Shown here in pieces: positions 4,798-58,640 of a DNA stretch of 64,000 nt. Each line of letters opens with the position of its first letter. Position 1 is the stretch's first letter. The stretch comes from an uncultured Chloroflexales bacterium (GTDB lineage: Bacteria > Chloroflexota > Chloroflexia > Chloroflexales > Chloroflexaceae). Under the pieces are notes generated by a model. It did not search any database. It was not told the origin of the DNA and saw nothing but the letters and a program-made list of their open reading frames with translations. The stretch spans positions 1-64,000 of the forward strand of contig CAKZSI010000071.1 in assembly GCA_937918935.1 (NCBI GenBank), given 5' to 3'. Position numbers and translations under genes: made by a program.

Positions 4798-4970
4798 TGG
4801 TCAGGGAGGAGGGTTCGCGGAAGTGCTACGCCCTCCCGGCCCCTCCCCTTCGGCAGGGGCATGGGGAAACCGCGACGGTGGCTCGCTCGGAGCGCATCTC
4901 ACGGCCTCGCCGCCCCTCCCTTTCAACAGGTGCGTGGGGAAACCAGGTTTCCCCACGTTCCTCCAACGGT
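4798..4970. repeat. Composite palindromic repeat (families A and B)
   Basis: The gap holds a B-like arm (CTACGCCCTCCCGG), a partial A element (GCATGGGGAAACCGCG near 4860) and a perfect A palindrome, CGTGGGGAAACC-A-GGTTTCCCCACG, at 4933-4957. It separates the cyclase gene from ricT, both leftward. No open frame here looks like a gene. Confidence 0.85.
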
Positions 4971-4971
4971 C

Positions 4972-6486
4972 CTACGCCGGTCCAAGCACCTTGAAGGCAC
5001 GCACCAGGCGCTGGCGCCCCTTCAAGGCCAGTTCGCCCATGGCCTCGAGCCGAAAGCGATCGCCCAGCAGGCCGGCGGTGGCCTCGCCGATGAGGACACT
5101 GCCCGGTTCGGCCTGGCCCTCAAGGCGTGAGGCAGTGTTCACCGTGTCGCCGATCACCGTGTACTCCAGGCGATGGCGCGTACCGAAAAACCCGGTGTAT
5201 GCCGGGCCCGTGTTGACCCCGATGCGAATGGCGAAGGCCCGGTCAGGCGCCCAGCGTTGCACCAGGCGCCGCTGCGCGGCCTGCATCTCCAGCGCGGCGG
5301 CCACCGCGCGAACGGCGTGCTGGTCGTCAGGCGGATCATCGGGCAGGCGGGGCGCGCCGAACAGGGCCATGATCCCGTCGCCGGTGTATTTGTCCACCGT
5401 GCCATTGTAGCGGAAAATGACTTCGGTTAAGGCATGCAGGTACTCATTGAGCAGGTCCTGCACCTCGCGGGGGGAGAGTCGTTCGGCGAGGGCCGTGAAG
5501 CCCTGGGCATCGGCGAAGAGCACGGTAACGACCTCTTCGCGGGCCTCCCAGAGCCGGCCGTGCTGGGCAATGTAGCGCGCGAGCGCCTGGGCCAGGTTGG
5601 GCGAGAGAAAGCGTTCCAGGTTCTGGCGCAACTGCCCCTGCACGCGGAGTTCTTCGGTGAGACGGGCGCGTTCAATGGCGACGGCGGCGAAGTTGGCGAT
5701 GGCAACCACCAGGTCGCGATCGCGCTCGCTGAACTGTTCGCGACCGGGCGAGTCGAGCATGATCAGCCCGATGGCCTGACCCTGCGCCATAAGCGGAACA
5801 CACAGGGCCGAGCGGATGTTGGCGCTGATTATACTTTCGACGCCGGCGAAGTCGAGGCGCGCGTCACGGGTCAGCACCGCTTCGCCGCCGTGGAGGGCCT
5901 TGCGCACAATGGTGCTCGAGATAGCCACCTCACCGGTGCCGGGAGGCACCACCACCCGTGGCACCAGTTCCTCGCCCCGGGCCAGCAGGAGCAGGCCCCG
6001 CTGGGCCGGCGCCACCCGCAGTACTTCCTCCATCACCCGCTCAAGCAGTTCGCGGTAATCCATCACCTGGGTCAGGCGCATGCCGATGGCGTAGAACTCC
6101 TGTAGATCGGCAGGCGCCAGGCGCTGTTCGGGGGCGCCCACCGCCTGCCCATGCGAGGCCAGGGGAAAGTAGCGGTTGTCGTCCAGGACGACATCCTGGG
6201 CCGCGCGATCCTCGTAGCGCAGGTCGAAGGGGCCAATGCCAATCACGTCGCCGTCGTTGAGCGGCTCCTCCTTGAGCCTCAGGCGATTGACGGTGATGCC
6301 ATTGCGACTGTTAAGATCGATCGCCCAGGCCTGATGACCGCGAAGTTCGATCCGCGCGTGATGACGCGAGACAATCGCATGGTTGAGCACAATGTCGTTA
6401 TCGAGTTGCCGCCCGATGGTCAGCCCGTTCGCGCCCAGGGGAAAGATGCGCGGTTCGCCATTGATGACTACAGATACGCGCGCCAT
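4972..6486 (-). CDS. FHA-GAF-class III adenylate cyclase
   Basis: Predicted to make cyclic AMP in response to phosphopeptide binding and a small ligand. Three domains in 504 aa: an FHA domain (about 1-95; GR at 25-26, SRHH near 41-44, NG near 62-63), a GAF domain (about 130-280) and a class III cyclase domain (about 318-504). Metal-binding aspartates are Asp326 (FADAQGFT) and Asp370 (TGDGIMALFG). Lys366 and Asp447 (IGDTVNTASR) are the adenine-specifying pair, and Asn450 and Arg454 the transition-state residues, so it should be active on ATP. The ATG at 6486 has GGAGG 6 bases upstream; a GTG at 6498 overlaps that site. The FHA domain implies a Ser/Thr kinase, not found here. Confidence 0.93.
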   Translation of the reverse strand: MARVSVVINGEPRIFPLGANGLTIGRQLDNDIVLNHAIVSRHHARIELRGHQAWAIDLNSRNGITVNRLRLKEEPLNDGDVIGIGPFDLRYEDRAAQDVVLDDNRYFPLASHGQAVGAPEQRLAPADLQEFYAIGMRLTQVMDYRELLERVMEEVLRVAPAQRGLLLLARGEELVPRVVVPPGTGEVAISSTIVRKALHGGEAVLTRDARLDFAGVESIISANIRSALCVPLMAQGQAIGLIMLDSPGREQFSERDRDLVVAIANFAAVAIERARLTEELRVQGQLRQNLERFLSPNLAQALARYIAQHGRLWEAREEVVTVLFADAQGFTALAERLSPREVQDLLNEYLHALTEVIFRYNGTVDKYTGDGIMALFGAPRLPDDPPDDQHAVRAVAAALEMQAAQRRLVQRWAPDRAFAIRIGVNTGPAYTGFFGTRHRLEYTVIGDTVNTASRLEGQAEPGSVLIGEATAGLLGDRFRLEAMGELALKGRQRLVRAFKVLGPA

Positions 6487-6630
6487 AGGCGCCTCCACGA
6501 AGCAAGTACGATGTGGCCCTGGCAGATGTACGCCGTTGCTCGACTCGCGGCGGTGGCAGGCGCGCGGCCGTCTGTCCCCGCACCTCCCCGGCCATCGTCA
6601 GCGAGACGGCCTGGATGAAACCGTTTGGGT

Positions 6631-6659
6631 ATTATAACCTTTTCAAACCCTGGCGGCAA
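6631..6659 (-). promoter_or_regulatory. Promoter for the adenylate cyclase gene
   Basis: On the minus strand, -35 TTGCCG (6654-6659) and a perfect -10 TATAAT (6631-6636) are separated by 17 bases. The leader to the ATG at 6486 would be about 135 bases. Confidence 0.6.
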
Positions 6660-6866
6660 ACCCGGTCCCGTCCCGATCAGTGGGGAGGCAACGTCCGCCT
6701 CCGGCGGGGGTTGGGGGCTTGCCCCATGAACGTTGCACGCGCCCTGCTGTCCCGACAGGGTCCCATCTCTGACCAGGTCATCGCAGAGGACGCGGCGTGG
6801 CGGAGAGTTGCCACGGCCGCCGATCTCTGCGTGCTCCGCGGCAAACAAGTGCGCCCCGTGCCGGTG

Positions 6867-6875
6867 TGCTATAAT
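6867..6875 (+). promoter_or_regulatory. Extended -10 promoter of the PP2C-like gene
   Basis: TGC-TATAAT lies 24 bases before the ATG at 6899, giving a short leader. No good -35 is visible, as expected for an extended -10 promoter. Confidence 0.6.
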
Positions 6876-6898
6876 CCCCACGCGGAGCAGGCACAGGA

Positions 6899-9454
6899 AT
6901 GCGCGGTATGGAGCGGTTCGAGGTTCGCACCGAACAGTTCGGTCTCGTGGATGGAGCCAACCAGGCGCCTGCCGAACTGATCAGCGCGGCGGAAGGCGCC
7001 GATCCCCTGGCGCCGGAGGCGCGCAAGGGCCGGCTGTATCTGGTCGTGGAGGCCGACGGCGATGGCGCCCGTGGCATCGCGGCGTGCAAACTGGCGCTGC
7101 GGGTATTTCGCCGTGCGTTCTATGACGACCAGAGTTTCAGCGTGACTGCGGCGCTCCGGGCGGCGCTGCGGGCAACTAACAAGGCCCTCTACGAGCATAA
7201 CTTCAACCTCCCCGCGACCGAGCGCGTCACCGTGGGATGCACTGCTGCGGTGCTGCGCGAGGGGACGCTGTATGTGGCCCAGGTGCAGCCCACCCAGGCC
7301 TACGTTCTGAGCGAAGGCCGTCTGCGGGCCTTGCCGACCCATCCCGTCTGGGACCCGGCGGCGGTGAGCGCGGCGCTGTTCGCGCGGTCGGGCGCACTGG
7401 GGGCCAGTCTGTTCATCGAGCCGGAGTTGTTCCGCTGCCCGCTGCGGGCGGGCGAAGGGGCGATCATGTGCTCCAGCGCCTTCGCCGGGCTGCTCAATCG
7501 TGCCGACCTGGAGGCCCTTTTTCGCCCCGACAATGCCGGAGCAAGCACCGCGCACCTCAAGGAACGGGCGCTGGCGGCGGGTTTGACCACCGCCCACGCG
7601 CTGATTCTCACGGTGGAACCCGCACCTCGCCGGCGCCCCGCGGGGATCCTGTGGCGTTCGGACGACGCCGCGGCACAGCCGGACGAGCCGCGACCTGCGA
7701 CTCTCTGGTTCAGCGGGCTGGCCCGGCGGCTGGGATGGCGTCGCCCGCCAGTAGCCCCGGTGCCTGAACCGGCCCCTGATCCCCTCTATACTATGCCCGC
7801 CCAGCCGACGCATTCCCCGGCGCCACCCTCGCGCCCGGCCCCCCTCGATGTCGGCGAGAGCCTCGGTGAGCGCTACGCGCGCGGTCGCGAACAACCGGAA
7901 CGCGCCCCTCTGCGGCCCGAGAATTTGCCCCCGTCGGTGTTTCTGGGCGAAGCCGATCCCGCCGAGGGAGGCGCGCGGCGCATCGATCTGGCCGATACGG
8001 AGGCAATCAGCCAGGGGCGGCCCTACCAGCCCCGCTACATCCACCGTCCCCTCGTGGATATGACCTGGCAGGAGCGGCTGGCGCTGCCCTTCCACCGCCT
8101 GCGCATCGCGGTTGATGAGCGCCTGCGCCGTCCACGCACCCGCCGGCCCGCTCCTCCGCGCCCCATCACACGCCGCCACGGCCTCTCCTATCGCCGCGCG
8201 CGCCCACCCTTTCCCTGGGCCTTGCTGGCCATCCTCTCCCTGGTCATTGCCGCGCTGGTGATCTATGGCATCACCCTGACCAGGCAGAACGATCAGCAGG
8301 TTGTCCTGGCCTACTTCGCCGCCGCCGACGAACGCCTCAACCAGGTGCGTGCCGCGCCTTCCGATGGGGCGGCCCTGGAAGCGCTGGAACTGACCCGCCA
8401 GGCCATCGAGCAACTACGCGCCAGCCCCAGTGTGACCGACACCAATCCGCCGCTCTGGTTGCGCTACCAGGAGTTGCAGCGCGAGTATGAACGCGCCCTG
8501 GCCGCCATCCAGCGGCTGACCTTTTTTGATGATCCTGTCGTGCTCGCCACCCTGCCCGCCGGGCGCTTCGCCGATGTGATCGTACCGCCCCCTGCCGGGG
8601 CCGTGACCGATACAACCGCGCTGGAAGCGTCACGGTTCCTCTACGCCCTCGATACCGACCAGCGCGCCGCCCGGCTCTACCGCGTTCCCCGTGATGGCGG
8701 CACACCCGTGCCCTACCTCAGCCCCGGGCAATCTGTGGGCAGTGCCGTCGTCGGCGCGCTGCGGGCGGCTGTCTGGCGCATCGATCAGGTCGTGGCCGTG
8801 GATCAGACCGCCACCGGCGCCGGGTACTACTTCCGCACCGGCGGCAACTGGAACTACTCCCGGCTCGGCGCCAGCGAGATCTGGACCACCCGCGACCGCC
8901 TCGATGTCGAGGAGTACGCCGGGAATCTCTACGTCTGGGGCGCCCAGCCCAATGAGGTCCTGCGCTACCGCTCGGGCAGTTTCGGCGATCCGCCTGATTA
9001 CTGGCTCGACCCGGCCAGCATCGCCGAGGTGGATCTGAGCACGGTTGTGGATATGAGCGTGGACGGAAGCATCTACCTGCTGCGTTCCAACGGCGCCGTG
9101 CTGGTTTTCAGCCAGGGCCAACTGGCCGGCGAGGTAACACCTGAGCCGATCACGCCGCCGCTTACCAGCGTGACGCGTTTCTTCATAACCGGCAATGGCC
9201 CCGAAAATGGCTACTTCTTCTTGCTCGACACGCTCGGCGAACGGATCATCCAGATGGAAAAGGTCTCCGGCAAGATCATCCAGCAGATGAAAGCCCGTCC
9301 CGATGGCGACGTGCAACTGGCCGAACTGGCGGGCATCGCGGTTGACGACGGCGGCGCGCGCCCGATCCTGTACCTGACCAACGCCGGACAGATCGTGCGC
9401 GCCGAACTGCCGCCACCGCCACGGCCCTTCCGGGAAACTGCTCCGCCGGGGTAA
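6899..9454 (+). CDS. Membrane protein with degenerate PP2C-like domain and beta-propeller-like outer domain
   Basis: 851 aa. Residues 1-245 follow the PP2C phosphatase fold, including a strand equivalent to GDSRAYLLR...GRL (here QVQPTQAYVLSEGRLRAL). The metal ligands are missing: the DGMGG position reads EADGDGARG, GDSR reads QPTQ, the SDGL position reads SSAF, and the terminal DN is AH. It is therefore likely a binding pseudophosphatase. A Pro-rich, Arg-rich linker leads to one transmembrane helix (about 438-460, PWALLAILSLVIAALVIYGI). The outer half has repeated strand blocks resembling a beta-propeller (FLYALDTDQRAARLYRVPRD; LYVWGAQPNEVLRYRSGSFG). A lipoprotein gene follows. It diverges from the FHA-cyclase gene, which suggests Ser/Thr phosphorylation signalling across the membrane (inference). 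Confidence 0.75.
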   Translation: MRGMERFEVRTEQFGLVDGANQAPAELISAAEGADPLAPEARKGRLYLVVEADGDGARGIAACKLALRVFRRAFYDDQSFSVTAALRAALRATNKALYEHNFNLPATERVTVGCTAAVLREGTLYVAQVQPTQAYVLSEGRLRALPTHPVWDPAAVSAALFARSGALGASLFIEPELFRCPLRAGEGAIMCSSAFAGLLNRADLEALFRPDNAGASTAHLKERALAAGLTTAHALILTVEPAPRRRPAGILWRSDDAAAQPDEPRPATLWFSGLARRLGWRRPPVAPVPEPAPDPLYTMPAQPTHSPAPPSRPAPLDVGESLGERYARGREQPERAPLRPENLPPSVFLGEADPAEGGARRIDLADTEAISQGRPYQPRYIHRPLVDMTWQERLALPFHRLRIAVDERLRRPRTRRPAPPRPITRRHGLSYRRARPPFPWALLAILSLVIAALVIYGITLTRQNDQQVVLAYFAAADERLNQVRAAPSDGAALEALELTRQAIEQLRASPSVTDTNPPLWLRYQELQREYERALAAIQRLTFFDDPVVLATLPAGRFADVIVPPPAGAVTDTTALEASRFLYALDTDQRAARLYRVPRDGGTPVPYLSPGQSVGSAVVGALRAAVWRIDQVVAVDQTATGAGYYFRTGGNWNYSRLGASEIWTTRDRLDVEEYAGNLYVWGAQPNEVLRYRSGSFGDPPDYWLDPASIAEVDLSTVVDMSVDGSIYLLRSNGAVLVFSQGQLAGEVTPEPITPPLTSVTRFFITGNGPENGYFFLLDTLGERIIQMEKVSGKIIQQMKARPDGDVQLAELAGIAVDDGGARPILYLTNAGQIVRAELPPPPRPFRETAPPG

Positions 9455-9479
9455 TGCCATAGCGCCACCTTCTCAAAGA

Positions 9480-9735
9480 GGAGGAGCCGGGAGGGCTTAG
9501 TACTCTGTGAACCACGTTTTTCGGCACCTCCGCCCCCTCCCCAACCCTCCCCCGCCGTGGGAGGGAGTCCGGCGCCTCCCCCCAACGCGGGGAGGTTCGG
9601 AGGGGGGCGGAAATGCCACGAAACGCACGTTACAGACTACCTGGCCCTCCCTGGATACGCTTACGACAAACGCGGGGAACCCGGGTTTCCCCACGCCTTT
9701 GCCTGTGGGTTCGCCGGCCCGCTACCAGGTATTGA
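9480..9735. repeat. Composite repeat (family C) plus family A palindrome
   Basis: From about 9520 to 9640 the gap carries a C-type repeat: CCCCTCCCCAACCCTCCCC, a GC-rich inverted block, then GGGGGGCGGAAATGCCACG and the end ACGTTACAGACT. A close copy is at 32690-32812 and a shorter relative at 58643-58728. An A palindrome, GCGGGGAACCCGGGTTTCCCCACGC, follows at 9672-9696. Confidence 0.8.
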
Positions 9736-9736
9736 C

Positions 9737-10273
9737 ATGAGATCACCACGCACCTGGCTGTTGACCCTGCTCCTGGTCATCCTGCTGCTGCTGCCAGCCT
9801 GCGGGAGCGAACTTTCCGAGGAGGACCTGGTGGGACGTGGCGGGCCTACGCCGCAGGCCGCGGTTGAGAGCTTCCTTGCCACACTCAATGAGGCGCTGCA
9901 GGCTGACCTGGCCGACGAAACCGCGCGCCGGGGTTGGGCCGAACGCCTGGCCAGCTACTTTGCCCCCAGCGAGCGGGCCGACCAGCGCCTCGTCTTCAGC
10001 CGTATGCTCGCCGCCTACGTCCAGAGCGCCGCTCGGCCGGTCTACGGCAGTACGGCCACGGTGCAGATCACCTACACCGGCACCGAGGTGATCGAACGGC
10101 AGGGCGACCGGGCCGTGGTACGGGTGGTTGACGGGCAGGTGACGCTCCAGTGGCTCGATGGCGAGGGCCAGGTGGTGCGCGAACGCACCAGTGCCCTCAC
10201 CGCGCTCATGGGCCAGACCGAGGGACTCCCCGTGCTGCGCGTTGGGGGAAGCTGGTTCATTACCGAGGGGTGA
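9737..10273 (+). CDS. Predicted lipoprotein of unknown function
   Basis: 178 aa with a clear lipoprotein signal: Arg-rich start, a leucine-rich core and the lipobox LLPAC followed by GSELSEED. The mature part (about 155 residues) has a helical region, then a beta-rich end (TVQITYTGTEVIERQGDRAV; VLRVGGSWFITEG), like NTF2-like or DUF-type lipoproteins common in Chloroflexi. The frame is open upstream of 9737 but that part is encoded by repeats, so the ATG before the signal peptide is the start. It follows the PP2C-like membrane protein and could act with its outer domain. Function unknown. Confidence 0.8.
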   Translation: MRSPRTWLLTLLLVILLLLPACGSELSEEDLVGRGGPTPQAAVESFLATLNEALQADLADETARRGWAERLASYFAPSERADQRLVFSRMLAAYVQSAARPVYGSTATVQITYTGTEVIERQGDRAVVRVVDGQVTLQWLDGEGQVVRERTSALTALMGQTEGLPVLRVGGSWFITEG

Positions 10274-12962: not shown

Positions 12963-13448
12963 AGTGAGATCCTTATACTGGCGCATTCGGCACGTTCTCG
13001 AAGGGGAGGGTGGTCGCTTGCCGGGGTGGGGAAACCGGGTTTCCCCACCTTCTCAGGTGTGGGGTTTTCCGGCGCATCCTCGCGTGGCATTCGCCAGCCG
13101 GGGCATTGGGACGCCCAGCGCCCCCCTATCCCTGTGCGGGAGAGGGGGGCAGGGGAGGTGAGGAGCGTAAGCGCATTCGAATGCCGAAAACCCCTTCTCG
13201 CTCGAAAAATCCTACCCCTGAGAGGTCTCCCCACACCCCTGCCTGAGGGGAGGGTCCGGCGCACCCGTCAACGTTGCAATCGCCCCGAAGGGTGCGCCTC
13301 CCCACGCGCCTCCGTGGTAGCCGTATTGTACAATGCAAGCAGGATTGCGTCAGCATGCTTTCCCGGCGGACGAGGACGCAGGGAAACCAGGTTTTCCCGG
13401 CTTCCAGCATGTGTCAGGTTGCGTAACACCCCCTGAGGAGAGAAGGGT
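12963..13448. repeat. Repeat-rich divergent gap (family A, family D, hairpins)
   Basis: Between leftward xylA and rightward PIG-L deacetylase. It holds a perfect A palindrome (GGTGGGGAAACC-G-GGTTTCCCCACC, 13025-13049), a 68-bp D element at 13051-13118 whose inverted copy lies at 38927-38993, and a second A-like palindrome near 13378-13400. No gene is evident. Confidence 0.8.
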
Positions 13449-43421: not shown

Positions 43422-43560
43422 GGCGAAGCCGAAGATTTGTGGCGATTGTCTTCAGAAGCAAGTCGTCTGAGAAAAAGGACGAAGCGAGCGCGATAGAAGA
43501 AGCCGCGCCTCGGAAAGTGGATGCTTGTTCCTCAACGGGCAATGAGTGCAGATGGGGAAA
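43360..43560. other. Lower-GC segment after the broken BtuF-like gene
   Basis: About 200 bases visibly richer in A and T than the flanks (for example GGCGATTGTCTTCAGAAGC and GAGAAAAAGGACGAAGCG). Purine-rich, with no recognisable coding sequence. It looks like an inserted or foreign remnant. Confidence 0.4.
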
Positions 43561-43576
43561 CCGGGTTTCCCCACAT
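43552..43576. repeat. Palindromic repeat, family A
   Basis: GATGGGGAAACC-G-GGTTTCCCCACATC: perfect core. It separates the broken gene from the convergent helical-protein gene. Confidence 0.85.
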
Positions 43577-55752: not shown

Positions 55753-55920
55753 TTGAAGGGTGATGGGGAACCCGGGTTTCCCCTTCTTCCCCGCCCGCCC
55801 AGAGGCTGGAGCGAACCCACAGGCGCCCCACAGGCGTGTCCGGGATTGAAGGGTGATGGGGAACCCGGGGTTTCCCTTCTTCCCCGCCCGCCCAGAGGCG
55901 CCCCACAGGCGTGTCCGGGA
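55753..55920. repeat. Tandem pair of family A elements
   Basis: Two copies of a unit TTGAAGGGTGATGGGGAACC...GCGTGTCCGGGA: 55753-55845 (93 bp) and 55846-55920 (75 bp, lacking 18 internal bases). Each has GGGGAACCCGGGTTTCCCC-type palindromes and CCCCGCCCGCCCAGAGG. It lies inside the cys operon between cysC and sir. Confidence 0.9.
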
Positions 55921-58439: not shown

Positions 58440-58640
58440 GTGGGGAACCCGGGGTTCCCCACGCCCCGGCCCGCGCAGGCCGCACGCCCCCCGGCGCCGG
58501 TTAGCCCGGCGGGGAACCCGGGGTTCCCCGCGCCCCTGGCCAGGGTGACGCGCACCTTCGGCGTCGGTTAGCCCGTGGGGAACCCGGGGTTCCCCACGCC
58601 TCGGCCCGCGCAGGCCGCACGCCCCCCGGCGCCGGTTAGA
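58440..58640. repeat. Triple tandem array of family A palindromes
   Basis: Three units of about 66-69 bp (58440-58508, 58509-58575, 58576-58640). Each starts with GGGGAACCCGGGGTTCCCC and ends with CGGTTAG. Units 1 and 3 are nearly identical; unit 2 has diverged in its middle. It lies between the ssrA promoter and the esterase gene. Open frames through the array are repeat artefacts. Confidence 0.92.

Follow-up and report, generated by a model that had tools for sequence, protein, structure and literature searches.

The stretch of DNA analyzed in this work (64,000 nucleotides, hereafter the window) carries, at positions 6899..9454 of the forward strand, a gene whose 851-residue product combines, from the N- to the C-terminus, a PP2C-fold domain, an Arg/Pro-rich linker, a membrane helix, a helical stalk and a six-bladed NHL propeller. 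The family that it represents is best called a pseudophosphatase family, on the grounds of its predicted fold and of a loss of catalytic residues that is conserved across aligned members from two phyla; its members are presumably inactive. A transmembrane pseudophosphatase with an outer propeller had been proposed for this locus in the original prediction, and profile searches, predicted folds, topology and the metal-site alignment all support it. The two open reading frames named there, the 851-residue one and one ending at position 10273 that codes for a lipoprotein, are both present.

Full-length relatives are found across the order and, going by them, translation probably starts at Met4 (position 6908). 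The gene is present in one copy in the genome from which the window comes; this genome is 4.6 Mb in size, and its nearest named relatives are Chloroflexi/Chloroflexaceae MAGs with 89% identity. The parts of the protein are of known kinds, while we know of no precedent for their combination, for the reach of the family or for the fact that reduced genomes keep it. Neither a bacterial PP2C pseudophosphatase family nor such an architecture was found in the open-access papers searched.

The PP2C-fold domain and its metal site

Scanning the window protein alone against Pfam, PHROGs and PADLOC gave nothing useful, and none of the Pfam, NCBIfam or PHROGs models searched covers the family. Matches of the single sequence to PP2C were weak (2.6e-7 for the NCBIfam Stp1 model, NF033484, and 0.0065 for PstP). 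A profile of 55 related sequences reached the cyanobacterial PP2C tPphA at 5e-16 over residues 42-237. The AlphaFold model of the N-terminal domain (residues 6-241, positions 6914..7621; all features of the gene are given on the forward strand) had a pLDDT of 86.7 and a pTM of 0.87, matched PstP in Foldseek at 7e-15, and gave VIA Z scores of 20-22 over 210-227 residues with PstP, tPphA and Stp1. Since the profile hits tPphA at 5e-16 and the predicted fold matches PP2C with Z of about 22, a chance match is excluded, and the PP2C fold is established as far as prediction allows. Structure prediction, which had been named as the check on the proposed PP2C-like domain and could have shown the fold to be absent, thus confirmed it.

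The metal site was analyzed in an alignment of 101 members of the family (31 from Chloroflexales, 30 from other Chloroflexota and 40 from Patescibacteria) together with five PP2Cs from the window's own genome. The four metal-binding Asp residues of an active PP2C/PPM Ser/Thr phosphatase are all kept in each of these five canonical enzymes; in the window protein, the corresponding positions hold Glu, Pro, Ser and Thr. Since this defining feature was looked for and is absent, the window protein is not a PP2C phosphatase. PstP of M. tuberculosis, Stp1 and tPphA, which resemble the N-terminal domain over its full length, differ from it in the same way, as they keep the metal Asp, and they have no propeller. 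PstP is, likewise, anchored in the membrane.

The earlier claim that the four metal positions are lost holds in full for the Asp of GDSR and for that of SDGL. The former is replaced by Pro131 (7289..7291), which is Pro in 31 of 31 Chloroflexales and in 27 of 30 other Chloroflexota, and the Asp is retained in none of the 101 relatives from Chloroflexales, other Chloroflexota and Patescibacteria. The latter is replaced by Ser193 (7475..7477; Ser in 30 of 31 Chloroflexales) and is absent in 95 of the 101 relatives, with Asp still present in six. The last metal Asp (that of DN) is also replaced, though "DN to AH" was one or two residues off: in the alignment, the position falls on Thr230 or Thr231 (7586..7591), the register being uncertain by one residue. 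Many relatives have an acid near this position. For the Asp of DGMGG, a plain loss had been counted where the change is conservative: the residue is Glu51 (7049..7051), Glu in 30 of 31 Chloroflexales and in 69 of the 101 aligned members, so that the first metal position is still acidic, and most members have Glu or Asp here. In Chloroflexota, a specific signature consisting of N101, A127-Q128-x-x-P131 and G168 takes the place of the old site.

The acids just described, Glu51 and the one near the C-terminal metal position, might bind one metal and allow a weak or different hydrolysis, and their frequency among the relatives would agree with such a residual or altered enzyme. Comparable proteins exist: TAB1 and PHLPP2, eukaryotic PPM pseudophosphatases that have the PP2C fold without the full metal site and a proposed role in scaffolding or binding, each bind a single metal, but they are inactive in spite of it (PMC12002173). 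They also differ from the window protein in being eukaryotic, in keeping one metal site and in having no membrane helix and propeller. Given that the Asp of GDSR is missing throughout the alignment and that of SDGL nearly so, and that the last position is Thr in the window protein, we regard residual activity as very improbable.

The membrane helix, the stalk and the propeller

The PP2C-fold domain is followed by a poorly conserved, low-complexity cytoplasmic linker rich in Arg and Pro (residues 242-441, positions 7622..8221) and by a single membrane helix (residues 442-460, positions 8222..8278), which is strongly hydrophobic and helical in the model. Nine Lys/Arg residues are present in the 30 residues before the helix and three after it. 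Of 41 Chloroflexota members with a single helix, 37 showed a bias in the same direction, and the N-terminal domain is therefore placed inside the cell. Outside, the predicted model shows a helical stalk (residues 461-537, positions 8279..8509) and then a six-bladed propeller of the NHL type (residues 540-837, positions 8516..9409), formed by 24 strands, the pLDDT of the C-terminal model being 88. The outer propeller-like domain that had been proposed is thus a six-bladed propeller by structure prediction, but it spans residues of about 540-837 rather than 470-851, the part between 461 and 537 being the stalk. The propeller residues Y678, D722 and G791 are strongly conserved.

In the predicted model, the six four-stranded blades match NHL structures. 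The propeller resembles the sensor of PknD (Foldseek 6e-8 with 1rwl, VIA Z 20.5 with 1rwi, profile 7e-5) and the NHL domain of Mei-P26 (VIA Z 22.4), and its profile reaches the NHL domain of Thin at 1e-12. Since no Pfam NHL repeat was found over the curated cut-off (the best score, 19.5 bits against 20, was that of L236), we name the domain NHL-type by fold and profile and not as a member of Pfam NHL. Phytase, lactonase and DFPase propellers are matched at similar Z, and by the fold alone a catalytic propeller would be compatible with the model. The closest layout is that of PknD of M. tuberculosis, which likewise consists of a cytoplasmic domain, a membrane helix and an outer six-bladed NHL propeller. 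The cytoplasmic part of PknD is a kinase, whereas the window protein, in which no Pkinase match was found, has the pseudo-PP2C domain there.

Occurrence and descent of the family

Within the order, 81 of 82 genomes have a match. In nearly all of these, the match is a copy that is either full-length or split between contigs, and a few genomes match solely via ordinary PP2Cs; the gene is near-universal and single-copy in Chloroflexales. In Chloroflexota, 210 of 400 genomes (162 of 284 among those of good quality) match the propeller profile at E<=1e-10. This profile may pick up other NHL proteins as well, although the majority of the listed frames are 650-950 residues long. A scan of all species brought in loci from Moranbacteria-, Peribacter- and WS2-labelled genomes of 0.7-1.1 Mb, which belong to Patescibacteria; for the Peribacter genome we take the GTDB assignment to this phylum. 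In 379 Patescibacteria genomes, the propeller profile has matches in 257 and the N-domain profile in 281. Since the all-species scan, which used short exact patterns, returned five Patescibacteria-like loci (L162-L166) where hundreds exist, its silence in other phyla means little.

The Patescibacteria copies are 575-805 residues long in all 40 sequences taken in full. DGxG and GDSR are both absent from all 40, one of which has GNSR, and an active phosphatase was rejected for these copies. Their N-domain profile by itself reaches PP2C at 2.6e-6. In hhalign, the N-domain profiles of Chloroflexota and Patescibacteria match with 99.4% probability at 1.3e-21 over 222 columns, and the copies of both phyla appear, from sequence comparison, to be one family. 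In a tree of 87 proteins, the two phyla lie on opposite sides of a branch with an SH-aLRT of 99; the tree was built by a quick method and has long branches and biased composition. It fits either vertical inheritance from a common ancestor or a single ancient transfer, and it speaks against recent exchange. Most likely, the ancestor that Chloroflexota and Patescibacteria have in common already had the family.

Patescibacteria have been placed as sister to Chloroflexota in recent literature (PMC12329446). If other phyla are without the family, its shared architecture and clean reciprocal grouping would provide independent protein evidence for this disputed kinship. About three quarters of the sampled Patescibacteria retain the gene in genomes of about 1 Mb that have lost most genes. 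An important role is probable, since the gene is near-universal in Chloroflexales and is kept in these reduced genomes.

Gene neighborhoods and possible function

A PBP transpeptidase, MraZ, RsmH, MreB or SpoIID is encoded within about 6 kb on either side in 27 of 40 Patescibacteria loci, a count that was set only against a rough genome-size expectation of about one locus in ten. Neighbors named by Pfam are MraZ, RsmH/MraW, penicillin-binding transpeptidase, MreB, SpoIID, sortase, DUF4012, TsaB and SmpB. On the tree, the PBP neighbor changes 8 times and the MraZ neighbor 6 times; the SpoIID neighbor corresponds to one clade. In 19 of the 40 loci, a divergent gene of about 200 residues with a weak PADLOC/Csa3 resemblance adjoins.

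On balance, we lean towards the view that the protein is a single-copy, single-pass receptor or scaffold, ancestral to both phyla, which senses the envelope, acts by binding and has a role in wall growth or division. The anatomy in this proposal is that of the predicted models, and we infer the ligand, the partner and the process, the last from gene order only. The propeller would bind an envelope ligand or partner, the stalk and the helix would transmit the bound state to the inside, and there the pseudo-PP2C domain would bind a cytoplasmic protein via its remodelled pocket (A127-Q128-x-x-P131, Asn101, Gly168). The process served may be cell-wall growth or division, as the Patescibacteria gene order suggests. 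Three observations run against the proposal: the gene order in Chloroflexota differs from that in Patescibacteria, the gene order of related genomes is alike through common descent, and Glu51 leaves the first metal position acidic.

The same envelope neighbors, the conserved propeller residues and the N-terminal domain without an intact enzyme site would also suit a passive structural part, in which an envelope complex would be kept together by the propeller and the stalk, with the cytoplasmic domain as a mere anchor that does no signalling. We consider this rather unlikely, as the strict signature of the cytoplasmic domain (N101, Q128, P131, G168) exceeds the needs of an anchor.

Among the 40 Patescibacteria genomes with the protein, some of which are incomplete, a Ser/Thr kinase over the Pfam cut-off was found in five and a canonical PP2C over the cut-off also in five. 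Since kinases and phosphatases are so few, the receptor or scaffold would work by binding rather than by phospho-chemistry, and phosphoprotein reading is unlikely as the general role that had been predicted for the cytoplasmic domain. Chloroflexales differ in that canonical PP2Cs exist there, which leaves phosphoprotein reading possible in this order. With more reserve, we suggest that the protein may be an ancestral receptor, kept through genome reduction, that couples the state of the envelope to wall synthesis or division without phosphorylation, and so a shared derived protein of both phyla; this is a tentative reading. The family offers a handle on envelope sensing in cells that are mostly poor in kinases.

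In the window, the gene is followed on the same strand by one for a lipoprotein (9737..10273) of 178 residues with the lipobox LPAC and no Pfam family; judged from 15 aligned relatives, the start at 9737 is likely. By eye only, the lipoprotein is NTF2-like in look. The two genes are separated by 282 bases that contain a GC-rich repeat-like stretch. The predicted pairing is real within the own family, where all 16 testable loci have the lipoprotein gene as the next gene downstream in the same orientation, with a 4-base overlap in seven; outside the own family, it was not found beside the pseudophosphatase gene in the loci examined. In Chloroflexaceae, this lipoprotein is plausibly the partner that the propeller would bind.

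The divergent neighbor on the other side codes for an FHA-GAF-adenylate/guanylate cyclase (4972..6498, reverse strand), which we do not judge to be part of the system. Of 16 own-family loci, only 8 have it nearby and divergently oriented, in some with an intervening gene, and it adjoins the pseudophosphatase gene in none of the loci examined outside the own family. The three-gene set of the earlier proposal thus does not hold as a conserved unit, the cyclase being no constant neighbor, and cAMP as a possible output is unsupported as a general feature. The reading behind this proposal was that the pseudo-PP2C pocket binds proteins phosphorylated on Ser/Thr and is coupled to an outside sensor, with cAMP from the cyclase as one output. 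In its favor are the PP2C ancestry, the canonical PP2Cs of the window's genome and the cyclase next door in half of the own-family loci, but a kinase or PP2C is missing in most Patescibacteria carriers, the cyclase is absent from beside the gene in loci outside the own family, and the metal ligands are lost, through which phosphate binding in PP2C largely occurs. We therefore consider it improbable, even with the precedents of PHLPP2, which has lost activity and may keep substrate binding, and of fungal Cyr1, which joins a pseudo-PP2C domain and an adenylate cyclase in one protein (PMC12002173). The likeness to Cyr1 lies in the association of a pseudo-PP2C domain with a cyclase; in the window, a gene of its own encodes the cyclase, and this neighbor is not conserved.

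Beyond the own family, the neighbors in Chloroflexota vary and include tsaD, ligA, obg, G6PD and infC. As these are unrelated housekeeping genes, we discarded the idea of one fixed operon throughout Chloroflexota. A PBP gene adjoins in Chloroflexota at a single locus (L065), and in four loci from more distant Chloroflexota, tsaD follows at a distance of no more than 20 bases.

Dispersed palindrome in the window

A palindrome close to GGGAAACCCGGGTTTCCC returned 52 overlapping matches in the window, both strands together, as compared to 0.23 expected by chance. Roughly 20 separate places account for these matches, including positions 4936-4954, 9674-9692, 13028-13046, 43554-43572, 55765-55783 and 58442-58595, among others. 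GC-rich CCTCCC stretches are often found adjoining the palindrome copies. The gap between the pseudophosphatase gene and the downstream lipoprotein gene holds one copy.

Neighbours of the pseudophosphatase gene in Chloroflexota

In Chloroflexus-type genomes, the position directly 5′ of the pseudophosphatase gene, where the window has the divergent FHA-GAF-cyclase gene, is occupied by a gene coding for a multi-PAS/STAS protein (6004-7986 in locus L049, and its relatives). Outside the window's order, tsaD follows the pseudophosphatase gene in five Chloroflexota loci (L077, L079, L086, L088 and L091), the gap between the two genes being no more than 20 bases in four of them.

Two records, L148 and L150, are titled Gracilibacteria and Singulisphaera, yet the copies in them are of the Chloroflexales type and share 57% and 34% identity, respectively, with that of the window; their titles or bins are probably wrong.

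Neighbours of the pseudophosphatase gene in Patescibacteria

A divergent gene of ~200 residues was located immediately 5′ of the pseudophosphatase gene in 19 of the 40 Patescibacteria loci (L202-L241). Its product produced weak Csa3-like matches in PADLOC, and no Pfam family was identified for it. In eight Patescibacteria loci, tsaB is present near the pseudophosphatase gene. In one clade (L223, L228, L230, L233, L237 and related loci), the pseudophosphatase gene is flanked by smpB on one side and, on the other, by a gene for a bacterial PH-domain protein, beyond which lies one for a SpoIID-like coiled-coil protein.
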